Shown here piece after piece: positions 2,650 through 19,971 of a stretch of DNA of 64,000 nucleotides; within the stretch, counting starts at the first letter, position 1, and every line of letters starts with the position of its first letter. The translations under genes and the position numbers were made by a program. Source of the stretch: Futiania mangrovi. Its GTDB lineage: Bacteria > Pseudomonadota > Alphaproteobacteria > Futianiales > Futianiaceae. The stretch lies in assembly GCF_024158125.1 (NCBI RefSeq), contig NZ_JAMZFT010000003.1, positions 124,001 to 188,000 of the forward strand, read 5' to 3'. The notes under the pieces were generated by a model that was not told where the DNA came from, searched no databases, and worked only from the letters and a program-made list of their open reading frames with translations.

Positions 2650-4674
<2,025 letters not shown>

Positions 4675-16382: not shown

Positions 16383-16489
16383 GGTGCTCCGGAAATTCGG
16401 GGACGGGAACCTGTCCCGGCTTGTACGATCCGGGAGGCATTTGCGCAAGATTATTTCAAACAGCGCGCCGAAGAAGTTTCGAAAGCACC

Positions 16490-17539
16490 ATGATTCGGGT
16501 CTGGATCGTTACGGACGACAAGGCTGGCAACGAGATGCCGGCCCGCGGTCTCGCCGGGCGCGTCGCGGAGCGCACTCCTTGCGAGATCGTGCTGAAGCGG
16601 GTTGCGCCCGGCGGCATCTGGCGGCGCCTGCCGCCGGCGCTGTGGCAGGTGCGCGGGGCACGCGCAGGCGGATTCCCGTTCACGACGCTGCCGGGGGAAC
16701 AGCGCGCGGCCCTCGCGCCCCCGTGGCCGGACCTCGCGATCGGCTGCGGGCGGCTGGCGGCGCCCTTCGTGGCGGCGATCGGCCGGCTGTCGGCCGGCAC
16801 GGCGACGGTGCAGATCCTCGACCCGCATGTGCCGGAGCGCTGCTTCGACCTGCTGGTCGTGCCGGAGCATGACGGGCGGGAAGGCGCGCGCGTGCTGAGC
16901 GTGACAGGATCGCTGACCCGTATCACGCCGGAAAGCGTGGCCGCCGCCGCCGCAGAGCAGGCGGAGCGCTTCGCGCGCCTGCCCCGGCCGCTGGTCGCCG
17001 TGCTGATCGGCGGCAGCAGCAAGGCGCACCGGATGAGCGCGGCCGCCACCGACCGGCTGATCGAGGGATTGCAGGCGCTGCAGCGTGACGCGGGCGCGGG
17101 CCTGGCCGTCACGCTCTCGCGCCGCACGGGGGACGATAATGCCGCGCGCATCCGCAAGGCGCTGACCGGACCGGACACGTTCGTCTGGGACGGCACCGGC
17201 CCGAACCCCTACCCCGCCATGCTGGGCGCGGCGGACGCAGTGGTGGTGACGGAGGACAGCGTAAACATGGTCTCGGAGGCGGCAAGCGCGGGAAAGCCGG
17301 CGCTCGTCGCGGCGCTGGAGGGCGGATCGGCCAAGATGGCGCGCTTCCATGCGCGGATGCGCGATCTTGGCCTGACGCGGCCCTTCGCAGGGCGGCTGGA
17401 GACCTGGACACCGCCGCCGTTCGACGAGACGGCACGCGCCGCCGACGCGGTTCTGGGCATCCTGCGCAAAAAAAATGCCGGGCCACGCGGGCCCGGCAAG
17501 TCTAACAGGGAGGATTCACGTCTGGGAGACGTCAGATGA
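16490..17539 (+). CDS. ELM1/GtrOC1-like protein (mitochondrial fission ELM1 family)
   Basis: A 349-residue member of the ELM1 family, found in alphaproteobacteria and plants and resembling nucleotide-sugar glycosyltransferases. Visible segments are IRVWIVTDDKAGNEMPARGL at the start, VLIGGSSKAHRMS in the middle and VTEDSVNMVSEAASAGKPAL, equivalent to the sugar-nucleotide binding region. No activity has been shown for this copy. The last 25 residues are read through the hairpin and A-run at 17468-17497 and look unlike the family. The 3' end therefore overlaps, antisense, a candidate small RNA. Confidence 0.75.
   Translation: MIRVWIVTDDKAGNEMPARGLAGRVAERTPCEIVLKRVAPGGIWRRLPPALWQVRGARAGGFPFTTLPGEQRAALAPPWPDLAIGCGRLAAPFVAAIGRLSAGTATVQILDPHVPERCFDLLVVPEHDGREGARVLSVTGSLTRITPESVAAAAAEQAERFARLPRPLVAVLIGGSSKAHRMSAAATDRLIEGLQALQRDAGAGLAVTLSRRTGDDNAARIRKALTGPDTFVWDGTGPNPYPAMLGAADAVVVTEDSVNMVSEAASAGKPALVAALEGGSAKMARFHARMRDLGLTRPFAGRLETWTPPPFDETARAADAVLGILRKKNAGPRGPGKSNREDSRLGDVR
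17468..17497 (-). terminator. intrinsic terminator reading leftward
   Basis: On the minus strand, GCCGGGCC pairs with GGCCCGGC around a 5-base loop and is followed by eight T residues (A8 at 17468-17475 on the plus strand). It is a textbook terminator, and the nearest leftward gene (lsrB) ends 213 bases earlier, which suggests a separate short transcript. Confidence 0.9.
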
Positions 17540-17597
17540 CGGCCAACAGGGAGGAAGGACCGGCACCTGGAGCGATGCTGCGGCGCAACATCGTTCG
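17468..17597 (-). ncRNA. candidate AbcR (alpha-r15/LhrC-like) trans-acting small RNA
   Basis: The leftward stretch between lsrB and the terminator at 17468 has the features of an AbcR-type sRNA. It has a promoter-like pair at 17604-17632 and an expected length near 130 nt. UCCUCCCUGUU occurs twice (complement of 17504-17514 and 17545-17555). A CUCCCA motif sits in a perfect hairpin (ACGTCT/AGACGT, 17518-17532). A terminal stem with U8 ends it. CUCCC motifs can pair with Shine-Dalgarno sequences. In Rhizobiales, abcR genes lie next to lsrB/vtlR, and VtlR activates abcR2 in Brucella. Identity here is inferred from position and motifs, not alignment. Confidence 0.55.
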
Positions 17598-17603
17598 ACT
17601 GAT

Positions 17604-17632
17604 GAAATATGCCTCAATTGCCCAAAGATCAA
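17604..17632 (-). promoter_or_regulatory. candidate promoter of the small RNA
   Basis: On the minus strand, TTGATC (complement of 17627-17632) and TATTTC (complement of 17604-17609) are 17 bases apart in a locally AT-rich patch. Transcription would begin near 17597. The -10 match is modest, as expected if an activator such as LsrB is needed. Confidence 0.4.
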
Positions 17633-17710
17633 GCGCGCGACGGGCAGGCAGCCATGCGATTTGCGCATGGCGCCAGTTTTCATGCCGCATTGCGGTAAAG
17701 ATGAGCCGGG

Positions 17711-18601
17711 TCAGAACCGCCAGTCGCGCGTCTGCTGAAGCAGGAAATCCCTCAGCACGACGACGCGCTTGGAGTTTCTGAGCTCCTCGGGATAGGCGAG
17801 ATAGGTGGTGAAGGACGGCCCCTCAACCTCCGGCATCACACGGACCAGATTGGGGTTGTTCGCGCCCAGATAATCCGGGAGCGAGGCAAGGCCCAGTCCG
17901 CTCTCGACGGCAAGGAGCACGCCGTAGATGTTGTTGACCCGCAGGATGGGGTCACGCCGCTGGCCCGGAGGAAGGCCCGCCGTCAGCAGCCAGTTCAGAT
18001 CCTTCAGCGACCGGCTCACCTGCTCGCCGTAGATGATGACCTGGTGCTTGTCGAGTTCGTCCAGCGACCGCGGCGCACCGTGCTGCGACAGATAGGACTG
18101 GGCGGCGTAGATGTGGTGATTGACCTCGATGAACTTGCGCTGGATGAGGTCGGGCTGAACCGGCTTCCACATGCGGATGGCGACGTCGGCCTCGCGCATG
18201 CCGAGGTCCAGCTCGCGCTCGTCCAGGATGAGCTGGACGCGGATGTCCGGATAGAGGTCCACGAACTGCTTCATGCGCGGCGTGAGCCACGTCGAGCCGA
18301 AGCCGACCGTCGTGGTGATACGCAGGTCGCCGCGCGGCTTCTCCTTGCTGTCGCGCAGCAGCGCCTCGGTCAGCGCGAGCTTGCCGAACACGTCATGGGC
18401 GGTCTTGTAGAGGAGGTCTCCCTGCTCTGTCAGGATCAGGCCGCGCGCATGGCGGTGGAACAGGTGAACGCCGAGCGAATCCTCCAGCGAGCTGATCTGC
18501 CGGCTGACCGCCGACTGGCTCAACCCAAGGTTCTCGCCCGCGTGCGTGAAGCTGCCCGCCTCCGCCACGGCGTGAAAGACGCGAAGTTTGTCCCAATCCA
18601 T
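17711..18601 (-). CDS. lsrB: LysR-type regulator, LsrB/VtlR orthologue
   Basis: A 296-residue LysR regulator. The N-terminal winged helix (MDWDKLRVFHAVAEAGSFTH, then LGLSQSAVSRQISSLE) and the segment LFHRHARGLILTEQGDLLY closely resemble rhizobial LsrB and Brucella VtlR, as does the adjoining trxB. A periplasmic-binding-like effector domain follows (about residues 90-296). In Rhizobiales this regulator controls redox balance, lipopolysaccharide and envelope functions and activates the small RNA AbcR2. The candidate sRNA lies just downstream on the same strand. Orthology rests on motif similarity and synteny. Confidence 0.85.
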   Translation of the reverse strand: MDWDKLRVFHAVAEAGSFTHAGENLGLSQSAVSRQISSLEDSLGVHLFHRHARGLILTEQGDLLYKTAHDVFGKLALTEALLRDSKEKPRGDLRITTTVGFGSTWLTPRMKQFVDLYPDIRVQLILDERELDLGMREADVAIRMWKPVQPDLIQRKFIEVNHHIYAAQSYLSQHGAPRSLDELDKHQVIIYGEQVSRSLKDLNWLLTAGLPPGQRRDPILRVNNIYGVLLAVESGLGLASLPDYLGANNPNLVRVMPEVEGPSFTTYLAYPEELRNSKRVVVLRDFLLQQTRDWRF

Positions 18602-18753: not shown

Positions 18754-19716
18754 TCAGGCCGCCGCATCGGCCGCCTGGCCATGCCCGGCGAGGAAGCGCT
18801 CGGCCTCCAGCGCGGCCATGCAGCCCATGCCCGCCGCCGTGACCGCCTGGCGGTAGACCTTGTCCTTCACGTCGCCCGCCGCGAACACGCCGGGAACCCT
18901 GGTGGCGGTGGAATCGGGCGCGGTGAGGATGTAACCGCCCTCGTCCATGTCGAGCTTGCCCTTGAAGAGGGCGGTCGCCGGAACGTGGCCGATGGCGACG
19001 AACACCCCGTCGGTCGCAAGCTCCTTCGTCTTGCCGGTCTCCGTGCTGCGCAGCCGGACGCCCGTCACGCCGGGCGGGTTGTCGCCGCCGAGGATCTCCT
19101 CGACCACGTGATTCCAGACGGTCTCGACCTTCGGATGATTGAACAGGCGCTGTTGCAGGATCTTCTCGGCCCTGAGCGAGTCTCGGCGGTGGACGAGCGT
19201 CACCTTGCTTGCGAAATTGGTCAGGAAGAGCGCCTCCTCGACCGCGGAATTGCCGCCGCCGACCACCACCACCTCGCGGTTGCGGTAGAAGAAGCCGTCG
19301 CAGGTCGCGCATGCCGACACGCCGAAGCCCTGGAACTTCTGCTCCGACGGCAGGCCGAGCCAGCGCGCCTGCGCGCCGGTCGCGATCACCAGCGTCTCGC
19401 CGTAATAGACGTCGCCGCTGTCCCCCACCGCCCTGAACGGCCGCTTCGACAGGTCGACGTCCACGATGGTGTCGGAGACGATCTTCGTGCCCACGTGCTC
19501 GGCCTGCGCCCGCATCTGGTCCATGAGCCACGGACCCTGGATCGCCTCGGCAAAGCCCGGGTAGTTCTCGACGTCGGTCGTGATGGTCAGCTGCCCGCCG
19601 GGCTGGATGCCGGCCACGAGCACCGGCTCGAGCATCGCCCGCGCGCCATAGATCGCGGCGGTGTATCCGGCAGGCCCGGATCCGATAATGAGCTGCTTGG
19701 TGCGGTACTCGGCCAT
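18754..19716 (-). CDS. trxB: thioredoxin reductase TrxB
   Basis: A 320-residue NADPH-dependent flavoenzyme that reduces thioredoxin. The FAD motif is [16 protein letters not shown] at the N-terminus. The redox-active pair is CATC in [15 protein letters not shown]. The NADPH motif is [14 protein letters not shown], and [16 protein letters not shown] closes the FAD site. The ATG at 19716 was chosen over a 69-codon upstream extension that is not family-like and runs through a 13-bp tandem repeat. It precedes lsrB in the same direction, 152 bases apart, a common alphaproteobacterial arrangement. Confidence 0.97.
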
Positions 19717-19783
19717 CGCATGCCTCGCTTGGTGTGGGCGTTCGGGGGTGATGTGTCCGGACAGATACTTAACGGCCCAGCGC

Positions 19784-19835
19784 CCTCCCGCCAAGCCCTC
19801 CCGCCAAGCCCTTCCGCCAAGCCCGGGCGCCAAGC
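19784..19835. repeat. 13-bp tandem repeat upstream of trxB
   Basis: Four consecutive 13-base units end in GCCAAGC: CCTCCCGCCAAGC twice, CCTTCCGCCAAGC and CCGGGCGCCAAGC, followed by a degenerate fifth. They lie 68-120 bases upstream of the trxB ATG, in its expected promoter or 5' leader. Confidence 0.85.
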
Positions 19836-19971
19836 CCCGCCAATTCGGCGCCCGGCACGCCAGGGAGCGTTTACGTTTCGTTTGGTATCGCATTAGGAGC
19901 TTCTTCAACATTCGCGGCCACACTGATAGGCGGACCTGGCGACACCCCGCGACCGTTACAGCCGAGACACA

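Follow-up and report, generated by a model that had tools for sequence, protein, structure and literature searches.

The region between a LysR-type regulatory gene and a convergent ELM1-domain gene of Futiania mangrovi raises the question of whether a small RNA (sRNA) is encoded there and, if so, to which family it belongs. The earlier note on the window (the whole stretch of 64,000 nucleotides analysed) had proposed an AbcR/alpha-r15 homologue beside an lsrB/vtlR-type regulator. The features concerned are the following:

18754..19923, minus strand: trxB (thioredoxin reductase), kept upstream of lsrB in related loci; the coordinates are those of the longest frame, within which the protein probably begins
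17711..18601, minus strand: lsrB/vtlR orthologue, LysR family, 296 aa, no cysteine
17651..17671, minus strand: predicted LysR-type (LTTR) operator GCCATGCG-CAAAT-CGCATGGC, a perfect dyad with T-N11-A
17606..17633, minus strand: promoter-like CTTGAT-N16-CATATT, read from the sequence
17468..17600, minus strand: sRNA gene, predicted transcript of about 130 nt with three hairpins
17573..17593, minus strand: SL1, CGATGTTGC-GCC-GCAGCATCG, predicted fold
17533..17569, minus strand: SL2, predicted fold, with seed copy 1 UCCUCCCUGUU (17555-17545) in the apical loop
17518..17532, minus strand: SL3, ultraconserved perfect hairpin ACGUCUCCCAGACGU (ACGUCU-CCC-AGACGU) bearing CUCCCA
17504..17514, minus strand: seed copy 2 UCCUCCCUGUU, single-stranded anti-Shine-Dalgarno, followed by AGACUU
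17468..17498, minus strand: intrinsic terminator, 9-bp GC stem (17498-17476) and U8 (17475-17468)

When the LysR protein was compared with the PDB by phmmer, entry 9hh1 matched it over the full length with 348 bits, against 104 bits for the next LysR protein. The PDB name of 9hh1 is 'Transcriptional regulator, LysR family', not LsrB, and it is from similarity and date that this entry is taken to be the cryo-EM structure of A. tumefaciens LsrB (PMC11975290). Besides, trxB lies upstream of lsrB in 71 of the 73 related loci with enough sequence. Full-length similarity and the trxB-lsrB order identify the gene, at the level of sequence, as the LsrB/VtlR orthologue that the earlier note had supposed. 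LsrB from A. tumefaciens uses the redox cysteines C144/C273 (PMC11975290), whereas the LsrB of the window has no cysteine, like 87 of 116 aligned sequences, so any sensing by LsrB here would not proceed via C144/C273 thiols. Related to this, the LsrB proteins of loci L009-L146 mostly lack cysteine, unlike the redox-sensing rhizobial LsrB; for an LsrB without cysteine, as in this clade, a signal other than the oxidation of thiols is to be expected.

The two UCCUCCCUGUU copies, the perfect CUCCCA hairpin and the GC stem with U8, all described previously, were found on the minus strand. The 5' end of the transcript is placed at about 17600-17597 and its 3' end within the U8 tract, with single-stranded GAAUCCUCCCUGUUAGACUU between SL3 and the terminator, which is the sole terminator 3' of lsrB within the 800 bases scanned. 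The 132-nt RNA folds with -54.4 kcal/mol, compared with -38.9 +/- 3.5 for dinucleotide shuffles (z -4.4; none of 200 as good). Among the loci scanned, an exact second copy of UCCUCCCUGUU within one RNA is found only in the sRNA of Futiania mangrovi. An ATG frame of 19 codons within SL1 was not accepted as coding: it has no Shine-Dalgarno site, and visual comparison indicates that L054, L070 and L072 do not preserve its reading, so the earlier statement that there is no good ORF stands. The promoter is the weakest element of the gene. The promoter-like pair noticed earlier is present, but its hexamers are weak and the sigma-70 scan at this position gave no site with at least 9/12 matches; it may be considered a fair alphaproteobacterial match only. 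For comparison, PabcR1 of S. meliloti reads CTTGAC-N17-CTATAT (PMC8844928). On the opposite strand, the 3' part of the sRNA gene (17469-17539) is antisense to the 3' end of the ELM1-domain ORF (16421-17539, plus strand), whose Pfam domain stops at residue 345; most of the tail that follows is the complement of the terminator and seed.

The conservation of this RNA was analysed in loci collected with the LsrB protein alone as query (80 loci, mostly from Rhodospirillales and unclassified Alphaproteobacteria). In most of them lsrB is followed on its 3' side by ACGUCUCC(C/U)AGACGUGAAGCCUCCCUGUU, an ACUU-like stretch and a terminator, and the conserved 3' half of the sRNA can be written as ACGUCUCCCAGACGU-GAAnCCUCCCUGUU-nnACUU-terminator. 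The segment CCUCCCUGUU is invariant in 60 of 60 aligned sequences, which is partly the effect of selection because these sequences were gathered by that very motif; SL3 and GAA were not so selected. A covariance model (R2) was built on a consistent subset of 11 of the 60 sequences, with the structure specified by hand; an earlier model, R1, was dropped, its terminators having been misaligned by MAFFT and no pairs having been returned by RNAalifold. The window sRNA, from which R2 was partly built, scores 89.7 bits. R2 matches 68 of the 80 loci picked by the protein, and the link between lsrB and the sRNA is not universal, since the other 12 are without a match. In the R2 alignment 99.3% of the cells are paired, a value biased upward because the alignment was fitted to the structure. 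The stronger point is the count of compensatory changes: 215 two-sided changes compared with 62 in shuffles. Such changes are seen in all 8 terminator pairs. When the partners are slid by one base, pairing falls to about 40%.

At a wider scale, R2 matches occur in 176 of 385 alphaproteobacterial genomes drawn evenly over the class (E-values down to 1e-24), and relatives of the LsrB protein in 233. Among the 99 genomes with both places listed, 79 have the sRNA on the lsrB strand at a distance of 147-898 nt (median 223) downstream of that gene, and about 10 more have it within 6 kb on this strand. The window sRNA belongs to the lsrB-linked SL3 family defined here by R2 (SL3, CCUCCCUGUU and terminator, same strand downstream of lsrB). 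This class-wide recovery of the 3' half, together with the compensatory changes, places the conservation far beyond chance. Two tandem copies are present in 10 of the 80 loci retrieved with LsrB, for example in Thalassospira and Terasakiella. In families with weak R2 matches, the site after lsrB still often has an operator-like dyad and a C-rich RNA.

Other observations were made in these searches. At L047, a locus without an R2 sRNA, a TPP riboswitch lies downstream of lsrB (3480-3579). In the genome of Futiania mangrovi itself, an RNA-like paralogue (L002:1510-1566; C1, about 87.85 kb), flanked by quinone oxidoreductase-like and EamA-transporter-like genes, has CCUCCCUGUUAGACUU and a terminator and no SL3. 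At L131, about 65-280 nt downstream of lsrB, a perfect 16/16 operator is followed by a C-rich RNA (CCUCCCGG, CCCCUCCAGG) and a terminator; R2 hardly matches this RNA, which is possibly another version of the lsrB-operator-sRNA module. The 40 nearest genomes of the comparison set all share only the class with Futiania mangrovi, which appears isolated at order level.

The predicted operator lies about 60 bp upstream of the predicted sRNA start, and the window copy is the only match of GCCATGCG-N5-CGCATGGC with 0 mismatches in the genome. Its right half and flank, GCAT-GGC-TG-CCT-g (17657-17645), fit 6 of the 7 positions of the published VtlR/LsrB box GCAT-N3-TG-N3-T (PMC7486931, PMC8844928). With the sRNA start near 17599 this box would stand at about -58 to -46; in PabcR1 of S. 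meliloti, which also has T-N11-A, the LsrB box occupies -61 to -49 of abcR1 (PMC8844928). Scores of at least 13/16 were obtained in 40 of 62 intergenic regions and in 0.2% of dinucleotide shuffles, a comparison that is partly circular because the dyad was defined on the same loci. Independent support comes from its spacing, its uniqueness in the genome and the second perfect copy in L131, which was read afterwards. Related to the spacing, the distance from operator to SL3 is 157 +/- 16 and that from operator to lsrB 65 +/- 47, and in the 12 examined loci with both elements the operator centre precedes the start of ATGTTGC in SL1 by 68-72 nt. The exact published box is found in 14 of 63 regions (1.3 in mononucleotide shuffles). 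Within the 40 dyads the full box occurs in only 7 and GCAT in 35, so the dyad describes the site better. A one-mismatch copy at L118:1501-1521 (C2:193241 of the same genome), which closely follows a crotonyl-CoA reductase-like gene, may be no more than a hairpin. What is new here is this perfect LysR-type operator, which overlaps the published LsrB/VtlR box and recurs before the sRNAs of relatives at near-constant spacing; the odd published box is thereby sharpened into half of a canonical T-N11-A dyad.

Searches with Rfam gave no family at cut-off in the window, nor any Rfam sRNA family at cut-off in 20 diverse relatives. The lsrB-linked family is very widespread and without entry in Rfam 15; in agreement with this absence, BjrC80 is the one sRNA reported for Magnetospirillum gryphiswaldense in a published scan with Rfam (PMC9549626). 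The cmscan list alone could have hidden the AbcR model ar15 (RF02345), because ar15 and suhB share an Rfam clan. This gap is closed, as far as the first look reaches, because all 90 of its candidates over the whole genome were scored: the sole match, 13.9 bits with a cut-off of 40, is not at the sRNA. Over sets of 142 and 40 genomes ar15 gave sub-threshold matches only, the best (30 bits, G188) with no lsrB beside it. On the other hand, the 3' half of the sRNA was matched below cut-off by SorX (RF02784; 42.0 bits, cut-off 46.6), suhB/MmgR (RF00519; 35.1 bits, cut-off 41) and SorY (RF02651; 25.7 bits, cut-off 111), so that by these scores its sequence is closer to SorX, SorY and MmgR than to AbcR. 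The covariance check suggested for the AbcR assignment gave no match at the sRNA. The LsrB/VtlR neighbour, the abcR position, the anti-Shine-Dalgarno motifs and the operator on which that assignment could lean are retained, but sequence membership in AbcR/alpha-r15 is not. The sRNA represents a real, widespread and unnamed family, which judged by the ar15 model is outside the AbcR sequence family.

The reading favoured here, with considerable confidence, is that of an independently transcribed trans-acting sRNA of the lsrB-linked family, activated by LsrB and repressing many mRNAs via anti-Shine-Dalgarno pairing. A mere terminator with fortuitous C-rich flanks would indeed terminate the lsrB strand, but SL3 and seed are nearly invariant over the class, and the terminator stem differs between loci by compensatory changes; conservation rules this reading out, and its probability is negligible. 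It is also improbable that the RNA is the 3' untranslated region of lsrB, freed by RNase E like SorX. In its favour, the scan of the window showed no intrinsic terminator separating lsrB from the sRNA, so read-through from lsrB would carry the sRNA; however, the distance of the operator is constant to the sRNA (68-72 nt to SL1) and not to lsrB, and SorY, of which a homologue was seen beside lsrB, is transcribed from a promoter of its own in R. sphaeroides.

As regards origin, a true AbcR/alpha-r15 homologue that has diverged past the Rfam model is conceivable, its chance being somewhat below even. The same trxB-lsrB-sRNA locus on the same strand, the LsrB-type operator at about the same distance, the C-rich anti-Shine-Dalgarno motifs, the tandem copies of Thalassospira and Terasakiella, as in abcR1/2, and the clan shared by ar15 and suhB all point that way. 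Against it stand the missing ar15 match and the seed/3' module, which is CCUCCCUGUU-ACUU directly before the terminator, whereas ar15 has UUCCCCUC, a further hairpin and an A/U-rich stretch. No intermediate is traceable because no Rhizobiaceae genome was identified in the 385 genomes searched, in which the 9hh1 sequence had no match at E 1e-110. Membership in a SorX/SorY/MmgR-type group, with the linkage to lsrB secondary, is tentative to the same extent. The best Rfam scores are those of SorX, suhB and SorY, yet all are below cut-off. Directly downstream of lsrB in L144 (about 2495-2576), a locus from another family, there is a SorY-like RNA (62 bits, cut-off 111; SorX 41.5 bits) with the operator-like dyad GCTATGCACCACCCGCATAGC, and seed and terminator module recur in the paralogue L002, although SL3, which L002 lacks, is specific to the lsrB-linked set. 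Moreover, SorX of R. sphaeroides is processed from the RSP_0847 mRNA, not from lsrB.

Under the favoured reading of an LsrB-activated sRNA gene, LsrB would bind the dyad about 60 bp upstream of the start and activate transcription, and the sRNA would end at the strong terminator with an Hfq-type U tail. The CCUCCCUGUU segments in the SL2 loop and in the single-stranded stretch before the terminator would then pair with Shine-Dalgarno regions reading ACAGGGAG(G), repressing translation of many mRNAs, probably including those of solute-binding proteins of TRAP and ABC-type transporters. What the sequences establish is the anatomy of the RNA with its conservation and covariation, the synteny, and the conservation and spacing of the operator; transcription, dependence on LsrB and its sign, Hfq binding and targets are inferred.

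Candidate targets were sought in 400 kb of stretches of the same genome and by pattern searches, the seed being complementary to ACAGGGAG(G). Among the starts with ACAGGGAG in front are those of three binding proteins of the DctP family, one of the NMT1 type and an ABC permease; with a control seed, one DctP protein and one family-3 binding protein were obtained. Transport genes make up 5 of about 14 plausible starts compared with 2 of a similar number, a difference that is not significant. Seed-only energies of the candidate targets overlap those of random starts, and full-length sRNA-mRNA duplex energies are uninformative because everything is GC-rich. The transport-gene signal is suggestive only because known sRNAs act on transport mRNAs: AbcR represses ABC transporter mRNAs, SorY acts on takP mRNA (malate transporter) and SorX on a polyamine transporter mRNA.

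With these results the LsrB-sRNA circuit known from work on rhizobia, Agrobacterium and Brucella is extended to many lineages of Alphaproteobacteria, and AbcR and SorY are suggested to be positional counterparts. A single ancestral LsrB-sRNA module is a plausible common origin. The chances are about evenly balanced that LsrB, the dyad operator and the anti-Shine-Dalgarno sRNA next to it constitute one module that is ancestral in Alphaproteobacteria, of which AbcR in Rhizobiales, SorY in Rhodobacter-like bacteria and the SL3 family elsewhere would be same-locus descendants, with regulator and operator kept and the RNA rewritten.

Compared by description only, CcsR and the cuckoo RNAs share the anti-Shine-Dalgarno loops, but carry CCUCCUCCC in the loops of several hairpins and occupy a different locus (PMC3927594). 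MmgR/suhB RNA resembles the sRNA in its hairpin, CCUCCCU, AGACUU and terminator; however, its seed has no GUU, it is not known as lsrB-linked and its score is below cut-off. The same limit of score applies to SorX, which is alike in hairpin, CUCCCUGUU, GAC and terminator. SorY shares the CCUCCCUGUUGGACUU-terminator module, the action on a transporter mRNA (takP), the position directly downstream of lsrB (a SorY-like RNA in L144) and, in R. sphaeroides, a promoter of its own. It differs in an unrelated 5' hairpin, in the distance of 25.7 bits from a cut-off of 111 and in the RpoHI/RpoHII dependence described for it; a link between lsrB and SorY was not found in the literature examined. As for AbcR1/AbcR2, there is no covariance match, and seed sequences and order of elements differ: AbcR has aSD1 CUCCUCCC in the 5' loop and aSD2 UUCCCCUC between SL1 and SL2 (PMC8844928), while the window sRNA has UCCUCCCUGUU twice and CUCCCA once. 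Both nevertheless lie downstream of lsrB/vtlR, with an LsrB-type box near -60 (here a predicted site, by its perfect dyad and 6/7 box positions), two anti-Shine-Dalgarno motifs, hairpins and a terminator. The sRNA very probably works like AbcR and SorY, at the position of AbcR and under a probable LsrB operator.
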